Assembly (NCBI RefSeq): GCF_000499845.2
Contig: NC_023758.2
Coordinates: 40,442,108-40,506,107 of the forward strand
Direction of reading: 5' to 3'
Length of the DNA: 64,000 bases
From: Phaseolus vulgaris
Taxonomy: Eukaryota > Streptophyta > Magnoliopsida > Fabales > Fabaceae
The notes beneath the pieces were generated by a model that made no database searches, was not told the DNA's origin, and saw only the letters and a program-made list of their open reading frames with translations. Position 1 is the first letter of the stretch. The number at the start of each line of letters is the position of its first letter. Below are positions 21,596 through 55,874 of this stretch, one piece after another. Position numbers and translations under genes: made by a program.

Positions 21596-24500
21596 ATTTG
21601 AATTTTGTACTAAAGTTTGAAATTAGTAAATATCCTCATAGCTCGTAAGTTAGGGGATCTTAACATATAAAGATTATTATAGTTCCAACTATCTTCATTG
21701 AATTACATTGGAGGATTTTCTTCTTCTACTTTTCTGCAATTTATTTGTTTTAGTAATTTGCTTTCTGCATTTTGTTGCTTTTTTTACTGTCAAATTTTGA
21801 GTAATATATCTTTTATTTTTAAAGATGTTTGTAAATATTTCATTTATAAGAAATTAACAGATAAACTCATAATAAGAAATAAGGAACAATCTATCAAGAT
21901 GAAATATTTCCATTCTTTTCCAGAGAAACAATTATACTAATGAGTGATGGTTTATTGATCATAATTATTTTAGTTTTAAACTTTTCCATTCATTATATTA
22001 AAAGGACCTTTAGTGGATCACATATTTACTATCAATGGTTTACTAGTCACCAATATTTTAAACCTATTTTTGGCTTGAAGCTATTACAATATATTTTTGG
22101 ATTATCACTAAAATCGATTTATCCTATATAAGAGTTGATAAGATTTTTGTAAAAAAAAATCGATTTTATTCTAAAGAATACTAAAATATTACAAGAATAA
22201 TAACTGAAAAAAATTTATTTAAATTAGTTTTCCTATTATTGATAAATAGTTTCTAAATTTTGTATCTAATTAGCTACCAAAATCTTAACTATTAACTTTA
22301 AAATAAAATGATTTGTAACTAATTAAATATCAATTTAAAAATTATTTATTAACAATAAAAACTAATTTAAATATCAATAATATTTTAATATCTAAAATAA
22401 TATTTAATTTAATCAATATAATAATTAATTATTTTTTATCTTTAAAATTAATTTTTATTTAATGATTTTTTAATAGTAGTTAAATCAACTCTATATAGAT
22501 GATAAAAGACTCTGAAAAGATGGATCATCTGATGATATAAATAGGTTAATATATGAAACTAAAGTCTAACTCTCTCTACATGTAACACTATATACAAATT
22601 GTATATGAAAATTTTCTTTTCTTTATTCTAAGTTTATAAAACTTTCTAATTATTTAGTGTTTCATATAATCATGAACACAAAATGCATGTAATTGTTCAT
22701 GACAATATTCCCTTTCCCATAACATTATTTGTAAATGAAAAACTAATATCACAAGTGCATAATGAAGGTAAGACCACATGCTTTTTAATGAACTCAAACC
22801 TTTTTAAATAACTGAAATAATGTGTCAACTATTTAATTACCTTAAAGACATTTATACAAATTTATGAATTAAGTACTACTCACTTTTTTTTATCAGCATT
22901 AAGTACTAACTACTCACTAGTGTCGATATCACATACACTCCTCCATTTAATGTCGATAAAAGAAATCCATACATATAGTAGATATGTATTTAGAAAATTA
23001 TTTAAATACTCGTTACAATTTTATTCATAAATATTCGTGAGCCAGATATTTTTGCTATCTATTCTCCTATATATACAATTTAAATTTTGCACACTACTAT
23101 AGTGATAAACCTTATGGTTGTCTCAACTCAATGCTTAAGTAAATGTTAATGGGTTTTTAACATGAGTTATCAATAACTTCTTTGCAATTTTGTTGTAGTG
23201 AAACTTTTATTTGATGAATGAATTTGGAGTGATTAATGGTGTGACTTTGTACTCTAACTAATCAAATTTATTTAAATGGACTCAAAGAGGTACAACTTTC
23301 TGAGTAAACAATGTATCAATAACCCAAAGAGACTATTTATATAACTTCTCTCAAAGAAGCCACCTCAACATGGAAACAATTTTACCTACCCTTTTGTTAA
23401 ATCAAATCAATGTTTATTCTCTTAATTATTTAATAAATGAAGATTTTTTTTTTAAAATTTCTTCAATACAATTTAAGCGTAACAAGAAATTATTTATTTT
23501 TTATTTTATTTATAAATAATATTATTAAGCGTAACAAGAATTTGTAAATCACTATAGTTTTTTCTATAAATTAAATTCATTTTTAAAAAAAAATTCAAAA
23601 CTTAAGTTTTTAACATATACATTTTACATTTAATTAATATTTATTTATCATCAATTAAAATTTTCTTTATTAGATTGCATTTCCTTTTAATATTTTTTAC
23701 TTCATAATATATTTTATAGTTTCCATGAATGATAAATACTTATATATTTGTTAGCAATAAATAATAATAAAAGAAGGAACCGGAGACCAATTATTCATTT
23801 GTAAATTATTAATATTAATATTCTCTTGAATTGAATTTTTACATTTATGAAAAGAAGTACTTATTTCTCTTTTTACAAAGTATTGAATAAGTTGAGCTTA
23901 TTAAAAATATATAAATAATTATAAAAACATATAAATTTTCCACATGTATGGAAAATCATTCTTTTTAAGAGAATAACAAAAGAAAATTATTATTTTTTGT
24001 ATCATATATAACAGTAGAAGATAAAGAATTTGATAATATTGCATCAAGTAACATAACAGAGACCACTCAGTTAATTAGTATCCTAAACACACTAATTTGA
24101 CCAGTGATTCAAGCCCTTGATTTTCTCTTGAAATAAATAAGAAATCAATGAAATGAAACATCAAAACATTGCATGCAATAAATCAGCACAAAATCAGGCA
24201 ACAAGGTAGTATGAAAGTGCTCCACATGTGTGTGTTTTTTTATTTTCATTTTAGTATTATTATCTTTTGCAGTTTGATGTGGAAGAATTCCCTTCTTCAA
24301 AGTTCACACATAAACTTGTCTCTTTTTCCTAATTTTGTTTTTTTCCTTTAACCCTTTATTCTTCTTGGATGAAGAGAAGTTGAATGCGCAATTGACGGAA
24401 CTTCCATTACTTTCTGTTATCTTTTCAAAGGAATAAATTATAGAAAAGTAAAAGAAATATGAAGGCTGGTGGAAGAGAAAGTTAAGTCAAAGAGGAAGAT

Positions 24501-29000: not shown

Positions 29001-29488
29001 TAAGATTCAAATTCCTATCTAACATTTGTATGGTTTTCTTTAACTTTCTCCTTTTTTTTCATTTTATTTCTTATCAAATAACTTAAAAATTATCTCACAT
29101 GTTTTTCACTTATTTTTTATTTTATTTTTTTATTGAACCAAACAAACACAACGGTTTGTTAGATCTAGTGAAAAAGGGAACGAATTTTTGTGAAAGAAAA
29201 AAATATGGAAAATTTATCTTTCTATTATTTGGAATTATTCATTAAAGTTAGGAAAGAAAGTATTAGTATGAGTTCCACTCAAATATTTTTTTTAAATTAA
29301 AAAGAAAAGAAATAAGGGTATTTTAAAGGATAAACATAAATTTGATCTCTTATTTAGGATATTTATTGTATTTTATAAATATTTTTTCTTATCATTAGAA
29401 CTTCACATTCTAGTTTTAGACAATTGGATGACTTGTCTAGTGAGATTTAGTTATTCTAATAATTTTAATGATAATAAAAAATAAATTT
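26082..29488. other. Intergenic AT-rich DNA
   Basis: No gene is recognised. Frames at 26,617-26,817 (-) and 27,927-28,196 (-) have no family features. A possible tRNA-derived SINE head at about 28,325 is listed separately. Confidence 0.5.
28325..28440 (+). repeat. Possible tRNA-related SINE fragment
   Basis: GGTGGAGCTTAGTGGTATG resembles an RNA polymerase III A box and GGTTTTGATCC resembles a B box (consensus GGTTCGANNCC), in the right order and close together. The following sequence is AT-rich with no clear 3' tail. This may be a decayed SINE head, or chance. Confidence 0.3.
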
Positions 29489-31383
29489 AAAATTCAAAAT
29501 ATTCTTTCCTATAGTCATGGTTTTTTGCCTTTCCATTATTTAGGAGTGCATATCTTTGTTGGTGCTCCAAAGTGTCGGTTTCTTCAACCTTTGGCTGATA
29601 AAGTTAAATTGAAGCTAGCATCTTGGAAAGGTAAATCTCTTAGCATGATGGGTCAAATTCAGCTGGTCAATACAGTGATTACTGGATCTCTAGCTTATAG
29701 TTTTAATATGTATAAGTGGCCTGTTTCACTTATTAAGCAAGTTGAGCAGTGGTGTCGGAATTATATTTGGACTGGTGATATTCTGAAAAAAGGTATTGCT
29801 ACCGTTAATTGGGGGAATATTTGTTCACCTCTTGAGGATGGAGGCTTGAATATCATTAATCTTCATCATAAAAATAATGCATATCTTCTTAAGCTTGCTT
29901 GGAACTTTGCTTATAGCGACAAACCTTGGTCTTTACTCTTGAAGGCCAGGGTTCTTAAATCAAAATATGAATTTCGAACAGTTTATAGATCTTCCTCTCT
30001 CTGGCCTGGAATTAAGCAATTTTATTCTACCATACTTGACTATACTTATTGGACTGTTGGTACAGGTTCTTTTATTAATTTCTGGAATGATAAATGGTGC
30101 TCTACTACTTCTTTAGCAAATATTGCAGGGTTATCTGATGGTGTTAGCATTCCGGATACAGTCTCTCAATTTTGGACAGGTTGTGATTGGAATATTCCCT
30201 TCTCTTTACAGCAGATGCCTCTTTTTTTTAATCATATCATGATTAGAGAGGAACAGGATATTCCTAATTGGATTCTAAATGAGTCTGGTCGTTTCACTCT
30301 TAAATCGGCTAGGACTTTTTTCTTGGAACCAGGAGTTCCAGGTGGTTGGGGTAAATTCATTTGGTCTTCATCTATTCCGCCTTCCAAAACTCTAGTACTC
30401 TGGAAAAATTTTCATGGGCGACTTCCTACAGATCAACATATTCAGAATAAGGGTTTGCATATATGTTCTATGTGTTCGCTTTGTGAAAAGCAAGAGGAAT
30501 CTATTCAACATCTATTTTTTGAATGTTCTAACGCATTGCATATTTGGAGTTGGGTACGACAAATTTTTCTTACTTCTCATTTCTCTAATAAGGATGATCT
30601 ACTTTCTTTTATTAAGAGTGATGGTAGTCCTTTGGTTAAATTGATTAAGCTTGCGGTGATAACCTTTTCTATATGGATGATATGGCGTATGAGGCATTAT
30701 GCTAGATTTCAGGATAAGATTGGGGTTTCTAAGGCTATTTCGATAATTAAAGATTTAACTTGTCTAGTGGGAAATTCGTCTAAAGCTTCAATGAAGAATG
30801 ATATGTTGGACTTCAACGTGATTAAGTTTTTCGGTATTAAGACTCGTAGTGGTAAAGTTCTTCGTCCTCTTCCTATTAGATGGGAATTTCCTTCACCAGG
30901 CTGGGTCAAAATTAATATTGATGGGGCTGCTAGGGGGTATCCTGGTCTTGCTACTTGTTGAGGTATTTTTCGTGGGAGTATGGGAGAATTTATTGGTGCT
31001 TTTTCAGCGTTTCTTGAAGTTCAAACTGCTTTGGTTGCTGAGTTTTATGGAGTTATACATGCTATGGAGGAAGCTCAAAAAATGGGACTTACTAATGTCT
31101 GGCTTGAATGTGATTCTGCCTTGGTTTGTGCTGCGTTTACTGCTAGGACTAATGTTCCGTGGATGCTTTAGAATCGATGGAATACTTGTCTTAATTTTTG
31201 TGGGACAATCAGGTTTAGGGTAACTCATATTTTTCGTGAAGGGAATACGTGTGCTGATAAGTTGGCTAATTTAGGATTTATTCATAGAGAATCTTTTCAT
31301 TGGTATAATAGACTCTCAGCTAGTCTGTTCTTAGAATTCTTTATGAATAGGTATAATCTATCTATGTATCGTTTGTTTGTGTT
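29489..31383 (+). pseudogene. LINE ORF2 C-terminal half (RT thumb, zf-RVT, RNase H)
   Basis: The first open part (to 30,961) begins in the conserved LPFHYLGVHIFVGAPK region after the RT active site; the YADD-containing core is missing. SWKGKSLSMMGQIQLVNTVI follows. The zf-RVT region (about 30,330-30,560) contains IPPSKTLVLWKNFHGRLPT and CSMCSLCEKQEESIQHLFFECS, with its zinc-binding Cys/His. The RNase H domain starts at WVKINIDGAARG and continues with VAEFYGVIHAM, NVWLECDSALV and REGNTCADKLANLG, keeping the Asp/Glu/Asp pattern. Two in-frame stops interrupt it: TGA at 30,959 (after PGLATC) and TAG near 31,169 (after VPWML). It can make no active enzyme. Confidence 0.88.
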
Positions 31384-31563: not shown

Positions 31564-33523
31564 GAATAAATTTTATATATACTAATAATTTACATGTTTT
31601 TAATGAAATAAATATAAAGACTATAATAGTTTGGTTATCTTATAATTTATATTGCTTTTAAATGACATTTGATCTTCAATCAGCATTGTTGAGTAAGTTG
31701 AAGACCGACAAACAATATACGACTCCGTCGTAACTATAAAATCCTATTGAAATTCTTCAAGGTGTTTCTCGTCAACTGTTAACACCTAACGGGGTGAAAA
31801 ACAATGTTCACGTTATATTGTCATATTATATGTTAATAAGAATGTTAACCTGTAAATAACTTTAATATTCAATTTCATTTCTTATTTCATTTACTTTGTA
31901 TTTGGTATTTTATGCATCCAAAGCACACAAGATTTCTCCACAAAAATTCTTTGGTTATTGGACAGTATTTTTATAACTATTTTATAAATCCGTCGAGCTT
32001 TAACATATTTTGAGATTCTACCCATCCAAATGAAACAACTTCCATTTTTTTTCTGGCAAATAAAACACACGATGATCACTCTTTAATTTCGAAATGTATT
32101 TTTTATATTTTAAAATGAACATTTCAAAATGTACTTTTATATTTTAAAATAGTCATTCTGAAATTAAATGTATATTAATTATATTCTAGATATTTTATTT
32201 GCATAATTGTCTTCATTCGGAAATAGGTATTCTAAAATATAAAACAAAAGTTAAAATGAGGGTGTGCATTGGATAAATTTGAAATTTGCTTTTTACTTAA
32301 ATTAAAAAGTGATTTTTCTTCTTGTACACTAATAGTTCTTCTGCATATCATGAATCTTAAAAAGTATTAAAAATATTCCTCGCTATTACAATTCAAGTTT
32401 TATGAAAATAAAAGACGAGATATAAATGTAATGAAGAGAAGCAAGCATGATATTATTTCTGAATTTATTTTTATTAAATAAATTTAACTAACACAAATAT
32501 TTTAATAAAATAAAATAATAATAATTAATAATAAAATATGTATTTATTTATAAAAAAATATTATTTATATTTAATATAAAAGATTTTCTAATTATAACTT
32601 TTAAATTTATGAATATTTAAATTATTTACTTTTATATAACAATTGAAATTTTTTACATATATTCAAAATTTTGCATTTACATGTAAATTATTTTTTCGTC
32701 AAATAATTTGTATATTTTTTTAGAAATTAATTATGAACTGTATCATATTATATTATTAATAATTTTAATTTATTCAAATTTACGCAAAAATACCTATTTG
32801 ATTATTCTATTTTTTTTAAAGACAAGAGTAAATTTGTAATCTTACATTTTACACCTTTAAAAAAAATAAAAATACTTTTACTACCATCACATTGCTTACA
32901 AACTTCAATAAATTTTTCTCACAAATTAACTATAAAATTCTCTAATCTAAAGACACTAACTTTTTTTTCACACTTTTCTCTAAAATCCTCCCACTTCCAT
33001 TCTCCAGATTCAGTTAGTTTCCCATAGTTTTGTTAATTTTCTGAGACCTTGTTTGATGAGACTAATCTTTTATGCCATCTGCAAATATTGTCCGATAGTT
33101 TACCTTGGCAAGTCTTGATTAATGATGGAAAGCTATGCAATCTGTTTAATGTATTGGTCTCCTCTGCTTTTGGTTTCCTGAATTCAATGTACAAGCCCGA
33201 TTGTAATACTATTCCGGATCAAAGAATTTTTGTCTTTTGTTGTTTATTTTGCCACCAATATGCAATACAATATACAATTAAGATTTTGCCGACTACTGGT
33301 TGGAAGCAAGAGGCAATGTTCTGATTTGTTTTGATTGTATAATAATATTAGAATCTTTCTATAAAAATCCTTTAAGAATCCACGCAATGGGCGGGTTTTT
33401 TTATATCTATTGTACACTATTAACCTACTCAACCATAAAACTCTCGAGAAGCCATGCCATGAGTTGGAACTCGGGTACCTTGTAAAGCTGCTATATAAAA
33501 ACGCAGCCTTTCAAAACAATGTT
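31564..33523. other. Intergenic DNA and 3' side of the RLT gene
   Basis: 31,564-33,000 is AT-rich, with repeated ATTTTAAAATA- and GAAATTAAATG-like words near 32,080-32,250. The diverged dispersed repeat shared with 18,325-18,460 lies at 32,810-32,930. From about 33,050 to 33,523 the composition is less AT-rich and probably includes the 3' untranslated region of the minus-strand RLT gene. The plus-strand frame at 33,049-33,324 has no recognisable family. Confidence 0.5.
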
Positions 33524-36500: not shown

Positions 36501-39500
36501 GACATTGGTGAATAAAAAATATACAGAAGAAAAAGATTAAATAGCTTAGTGATAACATAATAATAGTAAGAGGGCTTAGGTAAATAATGAAGAAATCAGA
36601 AAAACTAAAGATCATTCTAAATTTAGGAATGGTTTGATGCAACTCAAATTACAAAGCACAAACTAGTATCTATATTAGAGATAGACTTGTGGTCTTAAAT
36701 AAGGAAACAAATAGGAAAATATGATGAAATCTTAAGACCACTCCTAAGAGATCATTTAAGATACTCTAAATTCTAAAATATTGTGATAATAATAAAAGAT
36801 ATTATAAATTACTCTCTAAATACTCTAACACATTTTAAGGTTATCCTTCTTCTTATATACGTTAATATATACAATATATTCAGTTTGTAATACGTTAATA
36901 TATACAATATACCTTCAGTTTGTAATATGTTAATATATACAATATACCTTCAGTTTGTAATATAAACAGACACTGACACAAGTTCAACCATGGCTTAATC
37001 ATTAACCATAAACCAATGCTTTAACTGGTTCGATGATCAGTGCAATTTTATGGTGGTAAGATGTCAATTGAAGTTGGCGATGAGTTTACTAGAGTTGATC
37101 AGAGAAAGAGGGATTCATATAAAGGAAAGAAGAAAGGAAAAGGAAACTAGACCACACGCAGTTTACCTCTTCAGTATCAATAAGCCTCCAATTACCATCG
37201 AGGAACTCAACAAAGATCCTGCCAGAGCCAGGATCATTGGAAGAAGCAGATGCAACAAATTGCCAATAACGGTTACGTCTTCGATCTTGCCCAAGGGTTA
37301 AGGATCTGTAGGCACACATCTCCTCTGCTATGTGGAAAATATAAGATTTCAGTTGAGACCGTGACCTTTTTGAATACTGTGCAAATGTCTGAATCTGAGG
37401 GTTATCTGGGCCAGTGCAGAGATCTTGAACTGAAGAGTGTTTTTCAATAGACATGCTCTGTACACCTGGAGCTGCTTTTTGATTTTCTGCAGTGCCGGGA
37501 GAGGGCACATTATTACAATTGTTGCCAAGCAATGATGGGCTTTGGTTTCCCTCCATGGCAGAACAAGAATGTTGTATTTCAACTTTATTCCCATTGATAG
37601 ATGGAAAATCAGATTTACTGAAAATATCATCTTTTAATCGAAATTTATCTAGTTGTGCTTCTGCCCACATTTGTTTCTTCAGAGCATTTGCTGCTTCCAA
37701 ACGATCCTGAAAGACTACTCATGTCAATTTGATAAACAACACAAAAAATAAGTTAAGGACAAAATACATTATATGGAATAAAGTTTACCTCTAGAACAAC
37801 ACGGATTGAGTTTCCTTCATTTGCCACACCAACCAACACAACAAGAGCATTTAGACGCTCCTCTACACTGAGGTCAGAAAATTCTCCTTCTGCAAGCCCT
37901 TGAACCCATGACTCTCCAGGCTTGCTTTCATCAATTTCCATATTATCTTCACCAAGATTTCCAACATTTAAATCTTCACAAGCACCAGGTTTCCCGGTTA
38001 CAGCAATTGGAGTATCAATCTTCTTGGAACCACTCTCAGGAAAACGAGGCAGATCCTTATCAAACTCACCCTGAAGTCCAACATCATGGCCCAAATTTTC
38101 TTTTCCATTGGATGAGAAATCATCACAAGGTCCAGATGTTTTGTTAGCACTTGACGAATTTACCAAATCATCAACTTCAGGGTCCTCGTCAACTTCGTCA
38201 CTCTCTGACTCTTCTCTTTCAACATCATCAGTATCCTCCTCAGCTAGAAACCCATTTTCAAATATCTGAATTTTCTTTCTTGCATCTGAAAGAATGGACT
38301 CAGCATCAGCAGGGTTCTTTCTAAATGCCTGACGTACACAATATGTTGACGGTGCTATTCTTTCAAAAAGCTTGGTATCTCTTGTTAAAGCAACAGAAAT
38401 TGATGCCTCAGGTGTTTTGCTGGTCGTCAGGTCTCGAAGACCAGATTTCTGACAGGTAAAGAGACATGAGAAGTTAAGAACAAACATGACAATACAAAAG
38501 ATCCCTTAATATGGATATGCAAGTATGAACGCACCTGAATTTTTTCTGCAAGCTCTAGTACTGTCAATCCCTTGTCACCCTCAAGTGATAGAACATGAAA
38601 TGCTGCAAATTTAACTGTACCAGGAGTTAATCGATGTCTAGATCTTCGAGGGGCTAACAGACCTCTCTCATGCATTTTTGTAACTGCATTTTCAGCCGCT
38701 GAACCATTACGAAGTTTAGAAATGATATCTTCACAACTTCTTCCCTGTATTTTAGATATACATTTCAATCACTAATATTAAACCCCCAAAAGGAAAGTCT
38801 TTAATTGCTTACTAAAATGCGTGCAAACCAAAATTGTCAGCAAAATATTTAATTGTAACAAAAGTTTCCTGCGGTTCAGGATAAACAAAATAGATAAACA
38901 AGAAATCAGCAACTGAAATTTTATCTTAATTGTATATAATGCCTTTAATCATTGAAATGCGGAAGTATTCTCATAATGAAAGAATCTTTAAAGCTGGATC
39001 TGAAAATAATAAAAGTAAAACTAAGAAAACTGAACCTCATCTTTATTATTTGCATATGAGCAGGTAGTACTTCTTTTCTTCAACTGTGGTCCATATCCTG
39101 CAGATAAAGCCAGCTGTCGGAAAATTTCTGGCCACGTCAATAGATTCAAGTGCTTATGCCAATTCCGTATGTCAAAGCCCCATGCATATGCCTGACATGA
39201 CAAAGGAAATATTACATGTATGGAGTCTGCTAAATAAAACCACTATTCATCAAAACGAAAAAGAGACAAGTTTCTAAAAATCCTTGAACTTACCCCTTCC
39301 ACAATCTCTGGATGACCACCTCCAGAGTTAGCAGCACCATTTTGATTCATTCCTAATCCTGTAGAAGGTGTCCTTGCAACATCTTCAATGTCTTTTATTA
39401 CCACCTTAAGAAGAGCAACATGTATCTCACCCAATAATCTTGAATCCTGAGAAAAAATCATTTGAACACCCAGAATGAGCAAAGAGTGAACAAAACTAGT

Positions 39501-46035: not shown

Positions 46036-46989
46036 AAAATAAAAATAAAAATATATATATATAACCTTTGAACAAGAAAGAAAAACATTTTAAAGAATCG
46101 CATGCGCATGATTTTTTGAAATTGTGTTTCATTGAATGTACAATCCATAAAAAAACTTTATCATAAGGTTTTAACAAGACATGAATTATATAAATTATTT
46201 TACTAGAATATTACAAGAATTACATCTTTGTTACATATACCAAGATCAAGACCAAGGGATAATCTTGAATTTTGCCTTATTATGACACGAACATCACAAC
46301 TTCAACTTGCAACCTTATTGCATTTTCTTATTACATTCTTTACATATGTAACTCACATGCAAACTAAGAATCTAGATCAATAAGGGTTGTACCACCATAA
46401 ATCCTTTTATCCCTTCCATATACATGTATATCCCTATCAATTTCTCCCATTCCCTAATTAGTTCTACTTTCCACCGTAATAAATGTTTCTATTGTTTATT
46501 CATGAATTCCTCCTTTTTTTTACCTTTATTGCATTTTTTCAAGTATGTGTAGCAAAAAAACTCATCTAGTAATACTAATATGAACGCTAGTCACATTTTT
46601 TCCTTTGATCTAGTAAACCAATTATCATGTATTGTAAACAAATCTTCATTGCATGCTTAAGTTATGTAAAATAATAGGTTGCTTTAATTGGATGCAACAC
46701 ATAGAACTTGATTGAGTGACTATCTATTATCGTTGGGTCTGCAACAATAAATTCATAAAAGAAAGAGAATAGAAAGAAAATATTATTATATTGAATTATA
46801 GTGTTAGACCATACACATTGAGATCACACATAAAAATATACATTAAGTATAAAAAAACTTTTAATAATATTTGATAATAAGCTACACTTTTGATACTTTA
46901 GATGTCACAATGAATGATGACATTGTCTTTTATAATACTTAACTCTCCTCCATCCGAATAACCATAACGTCTCATTTATACAGTTGATA
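46036..46989. other. Intergenic AT-rich DNA
   Basis: No gene or complete element is recognised between the transposase relic and the LTR that begins at 46,990. Confidence 0.5.
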
Positions 46990-48262
46990 TGTGACAATGT
47001 ATAGTATTTATAATTGAGAAAATTGAACACTTTGAAACTTAATAGTTGCTTAATGTTAGAAAATTACTTTAATCTGAGAATTATTGAATCCGATTACATA
47101 TTTTGAATCAAGAAACAAATGAAGAAATTTAATCTCAATTTTTGTGAAAATTTTATATGAATATGAAGCATTTAAAGAAAGAAAAGCAAAAACTTAATTG
47201 GATCACAAGAAGGAGCAAAGAAGGGAAATTGAAAGGAAGCATCTCACTCAAGCTAGAAGATTTAGCTCAGGCTAAAATTATCCAGATTAAATTAATGGTG
47301 CAATACTAATATAGCTTAGGCTAGAATTGTTCGCCCAAGCTAAAACAACATCGAATGATCTAGCCTAAGCTAGATTGGCTCGCTTGAGCTAGACTTCATT
47401 AAATAAATTTTGGAACAAAGTTAAAACAGGGGCGGTGGAAAAAAAGTGAGGATTTTAGAGAGAAGTTAGTGAGAGAAGAAGAAGAAGAAAACTTTGTTAT
47501 CAGGAGAAGAATCTGCTCAGATAACCCCTTCTTATGCAATCCAGATCAAGAATGAAGATTGGAAGAGCTATCATGAGTAGCTAAGTGCTTTCTAAACTTG
47601 GGATTGAATGTAATCTACTCTGTTCAAATGTATTTTTGGTGATATATATAATATTTTCTTTTTTGCTTGTTCTTGGTATTTTCATTTCATGTTTATTGTT
47701 TGATTCTAACTGATCAATTGAGTCTTGATTTTGATCTTTAAATTTAACTGGAAAGTATTCTTAGGGATCTGAAATAGACGAAAATATTTGATAACTTGTA
47801 ATGCTAGGAATAGATTCCAGGTTATCAATTGCATCATAATTTTATTCATAAAGTTGGATGATTTGTTAGATATATGAAGAATCAGTATTTGAGAAATTAT
47901 CTTATGAATTTCATTTATGATGAATCAAGGTGAATGACTTTAAATTAAGCATCAATAATAAGTAGTTTTGAGTATTATATATTGTATTATTCTGAAATAC
48001 ATATGACTAATAGAAGCAATTCAATCCCAAGTATTTTTTATCTATATTTGATAAGTTAGTTTCGTTACTTGTTGAATCAAATTGTAAACTTTGAGTTAAG
48101 TCTGGTAAAAGTGTTAATTTGGTTATGAACAAGTTTCTACAATTATTATCTATACTTGATGAGTTTTATAACAGAACTTCTTAATTATAATTGTTCCTTA
48201 TAGGTTCGACATTCGTACTTTAAATAGTACTATATTACAGTTGAGACGAATAAGGATGTTCA
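46990..48262 (+). repeat. 5' LTR of a gypsy-type element (palindrome-rich family)
   Basis: It starts TGTGACAATGTATAG. Its first ~590 bp match the inverted fragment at 431-1012. Between 47,250 and 47,395 are six TAGCTYRRGCTA-type palindromes. The far end (TATAGGTTCGACATTCGTACTT...TAGTACTATATTA) is typical of plant gypsy LTRs. The exact right end is uncertain (about 48,260). Same-orientation gag-like sequence follows, so this is the 5' LTR of the element split by the insertion at 48,567. Confidence 0.65.
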
Positions 48263-48479
48263 TTAAGTTGCTTCATCTGCCACCATTTCTCTTGTGAGGA
48301 ATAAAGCTTGTACTAATATAAGTTCAAGTAAATAAGCTATAGATCTTGAAGTCGAAGAGAGGGCCGAGAGAGCAGAAGAGAATTGAAGTCTTCATCTCGG
48401 CTATGATTAGGTTAATCCCAAAGTTCGAGAATATTTCTCGCGATATCTTTATTCTTCAATCCTTCATAGTTTTATTTCT

Positions 48480-48566
48480 AAAATTTCAATTTATTATCAT
48501 AATGCCATCAAAGAAATCATTTCTTTTTGGCGTGCCCGAGTTATCGACAACGTTTGTCATGGCCAT
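48480..48566 (+). pseudogene. Gypsy-type gag-like gene, left part (interrupted)
   Basis: The left remnant of the gag-like domain that resumes at 54,565. The open frame from ATG 48,502 (MPSKKSFLFGVPEL) is one candidate start. Skipping the inserted element and one copy of the 5-bp duplication makes another frame of this stretch continuous with the right part, without a stop in the ~60 bases before the junction. Leader-like sequence 48,263-48,480 precedes it. Confidence 0.5.
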
Positions 48567-49698
48567 TGATGAGCATATATTTATTCACACACAATAGCCT
48601 TAATCATAGATTATTGGACTATAATAATAAATAAATCCATTGTTTTAATTAATATTCTTATAATTGGGTTTATTTGGGCCTTAACTATTATTATTGTTAA
48701 TTTTTTGTTTTTAGAGTACATTATCCGGAGGAAGCATCTACCTTTGTGAATGGGCCAAATATGCAAAAGTCCAAGTTGTTTCTTGAACCAAAACAGGAAA
48801 CAGATTCTGAGGAGAAGAAAGAGAAAATAAAAGCTACAACATTCCAGAAGCAGAATTGGAAGCAAATCTTCTGCAAAATAAAAAGAATTATGGAAAGATA
48901 GAAACTTGGAAACGGTTAACAAAATATAAACTACAATATTCTCTCAAAATCCTTGGAGCAAAAAAGCTTATAAAAGGACACAAACATCAAGGAGAAAAGA
49001 GAGCTTCATAGGGTTTTCTTAGTTTATTTTCTTCTTAGTAATTCTTTTGTTTTGCCTCCACATGGAAGGTTAAACCTTTTTGGTTGATTAGACAACCAAA
49101 AACAACTGTTATAGAGAATTAAAAATCGAAACTTTTATTGAACAAAACCTCATAACTCAAGGGGAATTACAAAAGAATCAACCAAAAAGGTTTAACCTTC
49201 CATGTGGAGGCAAAACAAAAGAATTACTAAGAAGAAAATAAACTAAGAAAACCCTATGAAGCTCTCTTTTCTCCTTGATGCTTGTGTCCTTTTATAGGCT
49301 TTTATGCTCCAAGGATCTTGAGAGAATATTGTAGTTTATATTTTGTTAACCGTTTCCAAGTTTCTATCTTTCCATAATTCTTTTTATTTTGCAGAAGATT
49401 TGCTTCCAATTCTGCTTCTGGAATGTTGTAGCTTTTATTTTCTCTTTCTTCTCCTCAGAATTTGTTTCCTGTTTTGGTTCAAGAAGCAACTTGGACTTTT
49501 GCATATTTGGTCCATTCACAAATGTAGATGCTTCCTCCGGATAATGTACTCTAAAAACACAAAATTAACAATAATAATAGTTAAGGCCCAAATAAACCCA
49601 ATTATAAGAATATTAATTAAAACAATGAATTTATTTATTATTATAGTCCAATAATCTATGATTAAGGCTATTGTGTGTGAATAAATATATGCTCATCA
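48567..49698. repeat. 1.13-kb palindrome made of one folded-back LTR
   Basis: Arm 1 (48,567-49,089, plus) and arm 2 (49,698-49,176, minus) are both exactly 523 bp and read the same from TGATGAGC to GGTTGATT, with roughly ten differences by eye. The 86-bp centre (49,090-49,175) is the next LTR segment in minus orientation. At the turn, minus-strand LTR sequence ...TTGTCTAATC is followed by AACCAAAAAGG instead of TCCTGG as in the intact LTR. The plus and minus 103-codon frames in the two arms are mirror images, not genes. A TATAAAAGG box lies in arm 2 near 49,295. Confidence 0.92.
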
Positions 49699-49716
49699 AA
49701 TACCCCCACATTTATC
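49699..49716 (-). other. Polypurine tract of the nested element
   Basis: On the minus strand AAATGTGGGGGTATT directly precedes the 3' LTR start TGATGAGC. It is the expected primer site for plus-strand DNA. A second G-rich tract (AAGTGTGGGGGAGGAG) lies inside the element at 50,981-50,998. Confidence 0.8.
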
Positions 49717-51107
49717 CTTTTGCACTCCCAGGCAAAACATTCTAAGGTTTAAAAAGAAAAGAAAAAGCAGTGCAAATAACAAATAGCAAATTCTAAGAAT
49801 GCATAATGAAAGACGAGATATAATTTCAAGGAATCAAGAAAAATGTGAATGGAAATTCCTATATTTTAATATAGAAGCAGGTACTTGAAATTGAAGGTTG
49901 AATCAAAATTGACAAAACTTCAATGGACACTCTCCAACTCTCAAGTGTTTAGGGTTTGTAGTTACACTCAGCACTCATGCAGACAAACACTACCATATGC
50001 TTAGCAAGACTCTAATATTCATAACAATCGAAAAAAACATGCAATCAATGATCAAGAGGACTTCATAAGGGATGTGATGAGGCTAAGGTAAAGGTAGGTA
50101 AAAAGGGAAAAAAGACTTAAAACCATAGAAAAACAAAGGAGCAATGGAGGATAGGTATAAAAACAAGTGTAAGTATTATGACAATTCAACTCCTCTTTTT
50201 ATTTCAAGATATAATTTTTTTTTCATATAATAGATAGTCAATCCAGTGTATTAGAGGATCCACTCTTATTTTCTTTGTTTTGCTTTGCTCTCTTTTTTTT
50301 TCTCTTGTTGTATTCTTTTTTTTCTACCCCTTTTCTTTTTTTTTTAAAAAAAAAAACTAAGAGGTAAACTATGAAAATGAGATACACCCCCAAACTTATT
50401 CAAAAACCTATTCCCAAATGATTTCAAAGCTCCTTTATCTTCTAAGGTAGGGACAAACATGATTTTTCTTGTTTTGAGGCTTGTAATGAGGGTTAAAAAT
50501 AAGAAAAAAGTTATAGGCTCAAGGGGCTAACAAATGGATTATCATAAAGGTAGGTTAATATGGCTAGTGGGTTAATTTAAACAAAGAATGCCTTTATCAT
50601 ATCAGTTCATGCACGTAAATCACAATTGTAAAACAAAGAATCAAGCTAAGTTCTAGAGTATAAGCAAACATGAGTGAAAACACACTAAAAAGAGTATTAA
50701 ATGATATATCAATTAAGGCTCAAAACTCACTAGGGACATTCTATCAAAAGATTCAACCCAAAATTTCTCATAACCAACTTATTTATCAATTTTTTCAGAA
50801 AATCCAAACAAAAAAATATCAGGAAACCAAGATTTTCAAGAATTATAAAACATGTCAGCCATTAAACAATCCTAAAAAGCTTATTTATTATCAAAAGCAA
50901 AAAGAAATCCAAACAATTAAAAGAAAAAACAAAAAACACAAAAATAAATCAACAAAAGATAAATCCTAAACTATCATTCTCCTCCCCCACACTTAAATCA
51001 TACATTGTCCGCAATGTAAAATCAACAAATAAATGTGTATAATAAAAGTGAGAGAAGAAGTACTCCCTCATTCAGCTTGAGGGAAGTGGCAACTGCAACA
51101 AATCTCT

Positions 51108-52565
51108 TTAACCATCTCCTCTACAATATAATCCAAGGGCCTTTGTATAGTGTAGCACAAAGATGATGATTGCTGAAAGGTCTTGCCAAGGCATGCAGTA
51201 CCTTGGTAAACTATGAAACAAACATGCTATGACGAATAAGCCTTGAATTAATAGATGAAAATGGGGCGGGTCTGGAGGGCGTGTGAAATGGTACAGTTTC
51301 TTCCATGAATGGATGATGGTACTTTCTAGAGTATATATGGAAGACAAAAATTTATTCATCATAGACGATCTGATATGGTTAGCTGTTTGGGGATCGTCCA
51401 AGGGTGGTGGTCTAAGGCTAGACAATCTAGCTAAGGTAGATGGTCTAGTTGGGGTGGGAGATGGAATGAAATGTAAGTTAGGAGGTGGTGGTGGCTGGTA
51501 AAGGCTGCTTTCAAACGTTCCAATTATGATAGAAGGTGTAGCCAGTGGAGATGATGGAATGAGTGATATGGGCTTCACCTTAAATAACGGAGGTTGTATT
51601 ATTTGAAGCTTCAAGGATGGAAGAATAATATCATCTTCTTCTCCACTAGCAGCATCTACCTGAAAGATGGCCAATGACAACTCTTCCTCATTTTGTATTA
51701 CCTCCAAAACCCTGTTAGAGTCATCTGCTAGTGCGCAATCCTTTTCAGTAGATTCAGCAAGTATAACAACATCAACAACTTCAGCATGTGTCATAAAGTC
51801 TAATGCCTCTTGATTAAGCAATGATTTTTCCTCCATCAGTGGAGGTTGGACATTAGTTGGTAATGGTTCAGAGATCCTAACAACCTGCAAATCAACAGTG
51901 TCTGCATTGCAAATTATATCATCAAAGGATATGCATTTGTTCATCACAGAACATGCTGCACATGTATCATCAAAATCCTCTGTGTCTTCAGCAGTCATAT
52001 GCACTTTGGGAGTGTCTGGATAAGGTTTTATTCCTGCAAATGAAATGGAAACTGGAGGCATGGCAGAATTAATCTCAACACATATATCAGGATCACAAGT
52101 ATAGCATGTATCAAAGTTGGAAAAAATTTCTATATCTAAATTAGGATCATGATGTGAATTCAAACTTTGCTTAGAAATATCTTCAAATTGTCTAGTCAAT
52201 TGACCAACTTTCTCTTCTAACCTTGATAGAGTAGCATCTATGCTTTGCTGAGATTTTATTGTATTTACCATTAATTGTCTCACCAGCTCCTCCAAAGATG
52301 GCTCTTCAAGATTATGAGTAATATTATCAGTTTGCAAAAATGGTTGAAAAGGTGTTTCACTTTCATCAAAATAGTATTGCTGATAATATGGTTGTTGTTG
52401 AGGTTGCTCATATGACGACTGACAATATGGATTAAAATGTTGAGGTTGTTGAAAATATGGTTCACATTGTTGTAGAGGCTGCTCATAAAATTGTGAACGT
52501 TGCTGCAAATATGGCTCATAATAAATATCATAATTGTAAATTTCTTCAGCTAATTTTCGTTCCAT
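51108..52565 (-). CDS. Gag-like protein of the nested non-autonomous element (485 aa)
   Basis: The only long frame of the element, intact from ATG to stop. Residues about 12-80 are Gln/Tyr-rich (YEQPQQQPYYQQYY). Residues about 88-135 (EEPSLEELVRQLM, SRLEEKVGQLTRQFEDISKQ) form a predicted coiled coil like the segment found before the protease in plant gypsy gag proteins. The middle is acidic with scattered Cys. Pro-rich stretches follow (about 335-400), and the C-terminus has a hydrophobic run (LSAIIIFVLHY). I see no zinc knuckle, protease or polymerase. It may help particle assembly in trans, but this is inference; it may also be a non-essential relic. The conserved open frame over 1.4 kb argues for recent origin or selection. 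Confidence 0.6.
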   Translation of the reverse strand: MERKLAEEIYNYDIYYEPYLQQRSQFYEQPLQQCEPYFQQPQHFNPYCQSSYEQPQQQPYYQQYYFDESETPFQPFLQTDNITHNLEEPSLEELVRQLMVNTIKSQQSIDATLSRLEEKVGQLTRQFEDISKQSLNSHHDPNLDIEIFSNFDTCYTCDPDICVEINSAMPPVSISFAGIKPYPDTPKVHMTAEDTEDFDDTCAACSVMNKCISFDDIICNADTVDLQVVRISEPLPTNVQPPLMEEKSLLNQEALDFMTHAEVVDVVILAESTEKDCALADDSNRVLEVIQNEEELSLAIFQVDAASGEEDDIILPSLKLQIIQPPLFKVKPISLIPSSPLATPSIIIGTFESSLYQPPPPPNLHFIPSPTPTRPSTLARLSSLRPPPLDDPQTANHIRSSMMNKFLSSIYTLESTIIHSWKKLYHFTRPPDPPHFHLLIQGLFVIACLFHSLPRYCMPWQDLSAIIIFVLHYTKALGLYCRGDG

Positions 52566-53350
52566 TTTAGAATTGAAAACAGGGGATGTATATTATGGAC
52601 ACCAACACCTATTAGACGGCTTAGAGCAAACTCTTTTTTGTTTAAATTGAAAAGCAAACCAAGTAAACTCCCAGGAAAGAGAGGTGAGTCACAAGCGGAC
52701 AAACTTAAAAACCAAGTCTTTCCTAGCCAGAGTCTTCCCTGAATTGCTTTCAGTTTAAAAAAACAATCAAAGAGTAGCAACTGAAGTGTCTAACCTAAAT
52801 GCAAGATCCTAAAAAAAACTAATGCAAATGCTACACTTAATGCTTAAAAAAATAGTTAGAGAAAAAAAAATTATGTTAAAATAAATAAAGAAATAAATAA
52901 AATATAGAAAATAAAAACAGTAAACAAAAACAAAAATAGAAATAAATAAAGATTACAAAACAAAATAAAAGAAATAACTAAAAACATAAAAGATATAAAA
53001 TAAAGGCAAAATAAGATAAAGAAAAAAGATATAAAGGAATAAAATAAAAACAAATCAAAACAAAAAATAAAGATAAAAGACATAGGAGATAAAATAAAAT
53101 AAAAACAAATCAAAACAAAAAATAAAGATAAAAGATATATAGAAAGAAAATAAAAACAAATCAAAATAAAATAAACGTAAGAGATATCCTAAATATTATA
53201 TTTTTTTATTTTTTTCGTTTTTTTATTGCTATAATAAATAAATAAAAACTAATAGGAAGAAAATACAGGTTAAATATTCAGAAAAAAAAATTAGGAAAAA
53301 AAATTTATGCAGATAAAAAAGAAAAACCTGATAACCAAAATCAAATTGGA

Positions 53351-53373
53351 TTCCCCGGCAACAGCGCCAAATT
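53351..53373 (-). other. Primer-binding site of the nested element
   Basis: On the minus strand TTTGGCGCTGTTGCCGGGGA begins just past the LTR end (GCTATCA). This sequence is characteristic of plant Ty3-gypsy Athila/Tat-type elements (usual form TGGCGCCGTTGCCGGGGA), so it places the element in the gypsy group. Confidence 0.85.
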
Positions 53374-54564
53374 TGATAGCTGTCGTTTTGCTGTCAAATT
53401 AATATGATTCTAGCGTAGACTTGTCTAGAGAGATGATAGTATAATTGTGGACAAATGTCCCCAAGTCGTCTCCCAACGAATCCAATAGTAAAATTAGCTA
53501 ATCAGGGTTTAAAATCTATCTGCAAACAATAAAAGTTAGCAATAACAATAAAGATAAAAAGGGGTTTAGATAGTTATGCAGAAAATATAAAAAAGATTAA
53601 AATATCAAATAAAAAGCGGTTGATCCCAAGTTCTTCCACCATTGAATTCTTCACAGGTTCTCTAAAGAATAATCTTTTCTCAATCCTCCAACAGAGCTAC
53701 ACCAGATTGAACATGCGCCGATCTGATTCAACTGAAACTCACCAGTAAAGCATGTGTCTACTAGTTTAATCAATACCCACTTTGTTTCATGCGTATACTC
53801 CATGGTAATGCTTACCTCCTCTCCCTTGAATCATGCGCCCAAGAAATTAATTAGAACAATGCGAACTAACTAAGAAACCAAAGTTTAAGATAAGGAAGAC
53901 TCTCAATCATGCGTTCAAGTACAACCTCTCACAAAAACCAGTTTTCCAGGAGATTAGACAATAAAAACAACTGCTATAGAGAATTAAAAATCGAAACTTT
54001 TATTGAACAAAACCTCATAACTCAATGGGGAATTACAAAAGAATCAACCAAAAAGGTTTAGCCTTCCATGTGGAGGCAAAACAAAAGAATTACTAAGAAG
54101 AAAATAAACTAAGAAAACCCTATGAAGCTCTCTTTTCTCCTTGATGCTTGTGTCCTTTTATAGGCTTTTCTGCTCCAAGAATCTTGAGAGAATATTGTAG
54201 TTTATATTTTGTTAACCGTTTCCAAGTTTCTATCTTTCCATAATTCTTTTTATTTTGCAGAAGATTTGCTTCCAATTCTGCTTCTAGAATGTTGTAGCTT
54301 TTATTTTCTCTTTCTTCTCCTCAGAATTTGTTTCCTGTTTTGGTTCAAGAAGCAACTTGGACTTTTGCATATTTGGCCCATTCACAAATGTAGATGCTTC
54401 CTCCGGATAATGTACTCTAAAAACACAAAATTAACAATAATAATAGTTAAGGCCCAAATAAATCCAATTATAAGAATATTAATTAAAACAATGGATTTAT
54501 TTATTATTATAGTCCAATAATCTATGATTAAGGCTATTGTGTGTGAATAAATATATGCTCATCA
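53374..54564 (-). repeat. 5' LTR of the nested element
   Basis: A 1191-bp LTR from TGATGAGCATATATTTATTC (at 54,564) to CGACAGCTATCA (at 53,374). It contains a TATAAAAGG box near 54,155-54,165, a CTTTTATTGAACAAAACC segment seen also at the palindrome centre, and repeated CGCATG motifs. It is the reference for recognising the folded 3' LTR. Confidence 0.9.
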
Positions 54565-55200
54565 GCCGTGAAGGCGAGGCTTGTGAATTCTTCTATTTTT
54601 ATGAATGTCATTTTACTGATATTCATGTTCGGCTCTCATTAGATGAATTTCAAATGGGTGTCCTTCACCTTTTTAACGTTGCTCCTACTCAACTTCACCC
54701 TAATAGATGGGCTTCTATGCAAACTTTTCATCTTTTGTGCAAACATCTAACATTGTCTCCTAGTCCGGGAGTTTTTCTTTATTTTTATAGCTCTCGGCCT
54801 GACAAGTGACCAAAGGAGGTTTTTTCAAAATTCTAACTGAAAAAGTCAGGAAAAACTATTTTTATGATGGTGATGTACCAAAATTTCCATTCTATTGGAC
54901 GCGTTCTCCACTAAAGTTTAACTCATGTTCATATCATTCAATGAGCGCATAAGACCGACATGTTCTTTTGGTGCTTAATCACTTATCTCAAAAGCTTCCT
55001 ACTCATGCTTTACTTGATTTCGAAACTCCCTCAACTCCTCCATCTGCATAAACTTCGCTGCACGCTACCTTAACTCATCAAGATTTGTTGCCGATTTTTT
55101 AAAAAGGCTATCGTCAAATGGTCCCAGCCTTAGTGTTGTAATCATATGATGCATAGTGACCTCCGGACTAAGATTTCGGATACTCAACACTACTTTTCCA
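54565..55200 (+). pseudogene. Gypsy-type gag-like gene, right part ('putative gypsy type transposon' domain)
   Basis: The open part to 54,809 reads REGEACEFFYFYE, HVRLSLDEFQMGVLHLFNVA, PTQLHPNRWASMQTFHLLC and SPGVFLYFYSSRP. This is the plant domain annotated as putative gypsy type transposon (Transposase_28-like), a gag-like region. Later stretches in the same direction (YFYDGDVPKFPFYWT, then PPSA) continue it past stop codons and frameshifts. It is the downstream half of the gene broken by the nested element, and its 3' remainder is lost where opposite-strand gag sequence begins at about 55,206. Non-functional. Confidence 0.75.
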
Positions 55201-55205
55201 AAGCG

Positions 55206-55874
55206 CTATATGAATATTCTCAATGATTCTCCCTTTTCCTGTCTAATATTCACCAAGGAAATTGATGTCAAATGATGTGGCTGGCTCGTAGCAAATTGAG
55301 CTCCAAAATTCTCTACTAAAGTGTCAAAACAATCGATAGATAACGGTGGCAACCGAGTAAAATAACTCAAAGTCGCTCCCTTCAAAGTTGTTGGGAATAC
55401 TAGGCACAAAATGACGTCATTCCATGTATACAAACTTATTTGTGTTGTATATACTGCAATGTGTTCATCAGGATTTGTACTTCCATCATACTTCTCCATG
55501 GTTAAATTCTTCCAATTTTCAAGTAGTGGGGTTTCTATAATGGCTTCAGAGAATGGATGCCTCCTAACAAATATTTTGGCAAACGTATCAGAAGTATCTG
55601 ATAATCTCTTCCTTGTAGCTTCAAAGCTCTCCTCATTATGTACCATCTGGTGGATATGTGTTCTTGGCTGAACAGTTTCAAATGATGTGTTTAAAATTGT
55701 CTCTTCATTCAACTTCCACTTTATGTATGCATTTTCTGCCCTTAACATACTTAACTCTTCTTCATTGCTTTTCTTTAGTGTTTCAAACTCTCTTTGTAAC
55801 TGCATGAGCATAGCCATTGACATGGCATTCTGATTATCTCCCTGCTCCCCAAACTGCTCTCCTCTTCTACTCAT
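55206..55874 (-). pseudogene. Ty3-gypsy gag, C-terminally truncated (222 aa)
   Basis: The frame starts MSRRGEQFGE. A coiled-coil-like region (LQREFETLKKSNEEELSMLR) precedes the Retrotrans_gag domain: PFSEAIIETPLLENWKNL, YDGSTNPDEHIAVYTTQI, ATLSYFTRLPPLSIDCFDTL, LVNIRQEKGESLR. A complete protein would go on to a zinc knuckle and protease; here it ends at ESLRIFI, where other repeat DNA begins. The primer-binding site and 5' LTR lie just upstream on the same strand. It is a broken element end, not a host gene. Confidence 0.85.

Follow-up and report, generated by a model that had tools for sequence, protein, structure and literature searches.

An LTR retrotransposon insertion in Phaseolus vulgaris bounded by two U3 termini, with an inverted partial LTR copy at one border

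The window analyzed here, a 64,000-nucleotide stretch of Phaseolus vulgaris DNA (contig NC_023758.2, positions 40,442,108 to 40,506,107), contains a 5998-bp insert at 48,567-54,564 whose element reads on the minus strand. From the right border inward, the insert consists of a 5' LTR, a primer site, a frame of 485 residues, a polypurine tract (PPT), and a truncated 3' LTR. The features needed for the argument are the following, in coordinates of the window.

48,411-48,561, plus strand: left half of the interrupted target frame, a host-side transposon fossil; with one of the two repeat copies taken out, the frame continues at 54,565
48,562-48,566, plus strand: left copy of the target-site duplication, GCCAT, which differs from GCCGT by one CpG-type change (from the sequence and the frame test)
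48,567-49,089, plus strand: outer inverted arm, LTR positions 1-523, with its U3 terminus outward
48,969-48,976, plus strand: TATAAAAG at LTR position 403 of the outer arm, perhaps a promoter directed from the border into the element (function inferred from the sequence)
49,077-49,102, plus strand: perfect 10-bp stem at the turn, TTTTTGGTTG / CAACCAAAAA, closing a loop of 6 bases; also present in the predicted fold
49,086-49,089, no strand assigned: GATT, the 4-bp microhomology common to both arms at the turn
49,086-49,698, minus strand: truncated 3' LTR, positions 613-1 of 1191, without the U5 part (sequence comparison)
49,090-49,175, minus strand: loop that separates the arms and is present once, LTR positions 609-524 (sequence comparison)
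49,134-49,139, minus strand: AATAAA, the likely poly(A) signal, at position 560 of the 3' LTR (the 5' LTR has it at 561)
49,699-49,709, minus strand: putative PPT GTGGGGGTATT, adjoining U3, its role suggested by its position
51,108-52,565, minus strand: 485-aa open frame of the element, with no confident Pfam family and six protein relatives at 41-74% identity
53,353-53,369, minus strand: primer binding site TGGCGCTGTTGCCGGGG, matching the tRNA-Asp 3' end at 16 of 17 positions
53,374-54,564, minus strand: complete 5' LTR of 1191 bp, TGATGAGC...CTATCA
54,565-54,569, plus strand: right target-site duplicate GCCGT (from the sequence and the frame test)
54,570-54,809, plus strand: right half of the interrupted target frame, with a PF04195 match (joined frame; Pfam)

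Of the direct LTR pair with TG...CA ends that such elements have, the 5' copy (54,564-53,374) is complete at 1191 bp and the 3' copy is present only to position 613; over 49,698-49,086, sequence alignment with the other LTR gave 98.2% identity across 614 columns. The CTATCA end of the full LTR lies four bases before the primer site. For that site, which we take from the tRNA letters to be of the tRNA-Asp 3' end type, presumably as in the plant Tat/Athila group, the next best candidate had seven mismatches, and GTGGGGGTATT lies directly against U3, so that both priming signals are in place. A protein search with a chance frame of the 5' LTR found ten small proteins that appear to read across the same LTR region in relatives; eight of the ten run past position 613, and the LTR therefore normally extends beyond that point. 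Together with the position of the primer site and the TG...CA ends, this rules out an LTR of about 610 bp, the length given in the original prediction: 613 is the cut point of the 3' LTR.

No integrase, reverse transcriptase, or tyrosine recombinase was recognized by Pfam in the 485-aa frame, which is the frame of the element that the Pfam scan covered; the six other open reading frames measure 50-99 aa. The enzymes would therefore have to come from another element. A tRNA scan and an Rfam search found nothing, and an A-rich internal stretch of the element (52,877-53,187) repeats itself at 73%. Judged by these sequence features, the element is probably a non-autonomous Ty3/Gypsy-like LTR retrotransposon. 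It shares with Ty3/Gypsy insertions the TG...CA LTR, the primer binding site, a PPT adjoining U3, and a 5-bp target duplication, but it differs from them in that its left border is a second U3 instead of U5, in that LTR positions 614-1191 are missing from the 3' LTR, and in that no pol gene was recognized in the long frame. DIRS-type elements carry inverted terminal repeats, as this insert does, whereas the insert has a primer binding site, a PPT, and a 5-bp duplication. DIRS elements use a tyrosine recombinase and make no target duplication; the duplication found here speaks against an element of that type. Other frames in the window include one with a Retrotrans_gag match to the right of the insert (55,206-55,874, minus strand; PF03732, E 1.7e-5), a zf-RVT frame (29,468-30,961, plus strand; PF13966), and a WSD-domain frame (37,089-37,700, minus strand; PF15613).

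At both borders, which read TGATGAGC and GCTCATCA, the U3 start of the LTR faces outward. Followed on the minus strand from 49,698, the 3' LTR ends at LTR position 613 (49,086) and gives way to an inverted copy of positions 523-1 that runs to 48,567. The U5 half (positions 614-1191) is absent from the 3' LTR of the insert, and the border at 48,567, where a U5 end was looked for, is U3 position 1. The inverted copy of the first 523 bp (48,567-49,089) aligns at 98.1% to the 3' LTR arm and at 97.7% to the 5' LTR. It bears out the proposal that the 3' LTR retraces its own beginning and ends precisely at its first base, and the border letters and the length of the insert agree with the further proposal that both ends of the 5998-bp insert are U3 termini. 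The U3-U3 structure of the insert is real. Its palindrome tops the list of inverted repeats in the window (E up to 1e-10). Other such repeats in the window are an inverted 0.6-kb pair (46,984-47,586 and 428-1,020; 79% identity, about 46 kb apart) and two stretches that match their own reverse complement (22,216-22,373 at 77% and 32,499-32,779 at 70%), possibly small inverted-repeat transposons.

The target of the insertion is the fossil frame of a PF04195 gene (putative gypsy-type transposon), split by the insert into 48,411-48,566 and 54,565-54,809. PF04195 is a plant family. By their letters alone, the repeats flanking the insert make a weak case, since GCCAT on the left and GCCGT on the right agree at four of five letters and agreement at four or more has a chance of 2.6-2.8%. 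The target frame is more informative: 5998 plus 5 makes 6003, a multiple of 3, and when the insert and one repeat are removed the joined flanks are open over 131 codons, with the PF04195 match (E 7.4e-8) in the right part of the joined frame, beyond the join. A protein search with the joined frame yielded 20 homologs (11 of which were taken into one alignment), and all 15 that span the join are ungapped from residue 41 to residue 61, seven of them reading CHGRE exactly at the join. The other five (P0013, P0014, P0015, P0019, and P0020) have alignments that start past the join, at residues 51 to 81, and are not counted among the spanning homologs. The 5-bp duplication is secure because the frame length, the open joined frame, and the ungapped spanning homologs all point to it; the original prediction, which named GCCGT as the target, needs correcting in that the two repeats are one letter apart.

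Because the flanks rejoin as a frame and every spanning homolog is ungapped, the U3-U3 unit must have arrived in one integration event with a 5-bp duplication. The U3 termini at both borders, taken with the uninterrupted rejoined frame and its duplication, thus support integration through two U3 ends, as originally suggested, and we consider the U3-U3 insertion itself highly probable. A nested second insertion was rejected: the outer arm stops against the target repeat, and U3 forms the opposite border as well. Later rearrangement of a normal insertion, by inversion, by gene conversion, or by a second LTR replacing the U5 end, would have to account for an outer arm that ends at the exact first base of U3 against the 5-bp repeat and for flanks that rejoin in frame. 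A second inserted copy would moreover bring its own duplication, and none is seen; we regard such a history as very improbable.

Over 523 positions there are 10 differences between the palindrome arms, 7 between the two LTRs, and 12 between the outer arm and the 5' LTR. Four of these differences are private to the 5' LTR, two to the 3' LTR, and seven to the outer arm, and there is one three-way site. Equal branches for the three U3 copies, and hence equal age, are not rejected (chi-square, p = 0.23), and the largest share of private differences, that of the outer arm (7 of 13), has a binomial p of 0.14. This pattern fits three U3 copies that would have been alike at insertion and then aged apart; a slightly different donor RNA for the outer arm is neither shown nor excluded by these counts. 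The differences among the three copies gave no sign of conversion between the palindrome arms. Inverted chimeric reads are known to give rise to long palindromes, and an artefact of the assembly or of a chimeric read was considered for this reason. An inverted chimera would be nearly identical in its arms, whereas these differ by changes private to each, which rules out a copy-exact artefact, and the border agrees with the frame test; an artefact of any kind appears extremely remote.

At the turn, AATC (LTR positions 610-613) and GATT (520-523) overlap exactly, with 86 bases between the two words. Both pairing words are therefore present at the spacing first described; a 4-bp inverted match turns up at 0.64% of random point pairs in the LTR. 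Beside the turn, the 3' LTR reads TTTTTGGTTG and the 5' LTR reads TTTTTATTG at the matching place: CC at 49,096-49,097 replaces the T of the 5' LTR, an A-to-GG change in the 3' LTR that completes the 10-bp stem with the other arm. When 380 one-site edits were made to letters 595-613 of the 5' LTR, a single edit yielded a stem of at least 10, and it was the edit present, although natural changes of this kind would differ in likelihood. As a whole, the turn region had a predicted fold no more stable than those of shuffles (z = -1.27; 28 of 200 as stable).

The LTR-frame relatives suggest which state at this site came first. Nine of the ten cover it (the tenth, P0036, has no alignment there), and all nine keep the 5' LTR frame, seven reading LDNKNN exactly at the site and two (P0029 and P0030) keeping the frame with differing residues; the state of the 5' LTR is thus likely older than GG. 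The protein search is biased in that the GG state puts a stop just before the site, so that relatives with GG could be missed, and the argument draws on diverged relatives with a common 5' LTR frame, not on the absence of the GG state.

We propose that the insert with its two U3 ends was placed by integrase from a cDNA. While reverse transcription was under way, the right end of this cDNA was probably made anew by a tail-to-tail junction, at the 4-base match, with a second plus-strand strong-stop DNA. We judge this account about equally apt to prove right or wrong. Normal reverse transcription would have produced the full left LTR. The PPT would have primed more than once, as reported for Ty3, to give at least two plus strands starting at U3 position 1. 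The right-end plus strand would have halted at 613, having passed the likely poly(A) signal, and the AATC at its 3' end would have annealed to GATT (520-523) in the second strand. Copying would then have reached the 5' end of the second strand, which is U3 position 1, and so left a duplex U3 terminus ending in CA, and integrase would have inserted the two U3 ends with the usual 5-bp stagger. The GG was likely templated by the mirror arm, either during extension of the 3' end of the second strand or later in the chromosome. If patch and turn arose together, the direction of synthesis would have been from the outer arm to the inner arm; if it arose later in the chromosome, it says nothing about direction. 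These steps are all consistent with the anatomy of the insert, each being inferred.

In Ty3, the PPT is reported to prime repeatedly, plus-strand strong-stop DNA to be displaced, and dead-end copies to build up in particles (PMC5371799). Such recycling would provide a free plus strand starting at U3 position 1; in Ty3 the extra strands are described as dead ends, whereas in the bean insert one of them would have become an integrated end. PPT recycling is a finding from Ty1 and Ty3 and would be carried over by analogy to the lineage of this element.

The mechanism first envisaged for the insert was a snap-back in which a stalled plus strand folds via AATC and GATT and copies its own U3 to its own 5' end. 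The 4-bp match with only 86 bases between the words makes this possible, and at DNA breaks in yeast a foldback is described as having primed synthesis from an imperfect inverted microhomology of 10 bp with a 41-nt loop (PMC11724301). The product, however, would be a closed hairpin whose sole open end lies beside the PPT, and further steps would be needed to turn it into a linear duplex joined to the internal region. The A-to-GG patch, if made in the same act, would also imply synthesis in the reverse direction. Snap-back of one plus strand thus survives as a feasible route and not as the best fit, and we think it unlikely. Given the extra strands described for Ty3 (PMC5371799) and an open U3 duplex end that is made directly, a second strand fits better. 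The letters at the turn, on the other hand, do not tell a second strand from the same strand, and the turn points 523 and 613 are close together, which the short loop of a snap-back explains more directly.

A third possibility is that the U3 ends of two cDNAs were integrated at one target and that their free tails were joined by microhomology end joining, with nearly all of the second cDNA lost. The 4-bp overlap suits such joining. Concerted integration has been assayed in vitro with short LTR-end oligonucleotides (PMC11054761), and HIV and avian virus DNA insertions with one end completed by host enzymes are described (PMC5041404). The second cDNA could have broken at any point over several kilobases, but its break and the mirror position in the first cDNA are within 90 bp of each other, and this makes two donors quite unlikely in our estimate. 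The aberrant viral insertions resemble the bean insert in having one abnormal end, but large host duplications, deletions, or inversions are reported for them (PMC5041404), whereas the flanks here show only the 5-bp duplication. Retroviral autointegration likewise gives rearranged, partly inverted cDNA; the products described are deletion or inversion circles formed when a CA end attacks inside viral DNA (PMC2644782). In the bean insert the inner joint connects 613 with 523, position 1 and both LTR termini lie at the borders, and no terminus is joined inside the element, so autointegration was rejected.

Any model with two U3 ends also has to face the statement in a review that, for integration during infection, integrase must act on the U3 end and the U5 end alike (PMC11054761). 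The evidence for the mechanism comes from one locus. A variant of the second-strand model, only an idea, would have the 3' end of the second strand primed on the A-tailed 3' end of the RNA. It requires the poly(A) site to lie exactly at 613, and the run of six paired bases that it finds at 523 recurs, among 1171 LTR end points, only at position 797.

In the open-access literature (titles and abstract openings, among the matches listed, with few subscription papers), no integrated LTR element with two U3 borders was recognized. Scans of viral contigs gave nine loci from one scan without a blastn match to the element and no lead from the others, and none of 27 stretches from a genome contig scan was a relative. 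Fourteen prokaryote loci from a second genome contig scan, found with a pattern of 18 fixed letters, were taken as chance matches.

The truncated 3' LTR keeps U3, a TATA box (position 403), and AATAAA (560); a transcript could therefore end normally, and progeny would be expected to have ordinary ends. The two-U3 form should thus be a one-time product unless the error recurs. The TATA box of the outer arm would transcribe into its own mirror copy (48,969-49,089 into 49,090 onward), and from its position it is a possible source of hairpin or antisense RNA against the family. It is conceivable, though we consider it doubtful, that the supposedly dead-end plus-strand strong-stop DNAs of Ty3/Gypsy elements steadily supply U3-U3 cDNAs that integrase accepts. 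Genomes would then contain a hidden insertion class, marked by U3 at both borders, by a palindrome of half an LTR, and by a mirrored promoter directed back into the element and producing hairpin RNA against the family.

At this locus, the chromosome appears to preserve a by-product of reverse transcription that is normally found only as free DNA in particles. The insert suggests that integrase, acting in a living genome, can use two identical U3 ends and keep its normal stagger. It also supplies an exact pattern by which such events may be sought in any assembled genome: a U3 start, a turn inside the LTR, and a U3 start.
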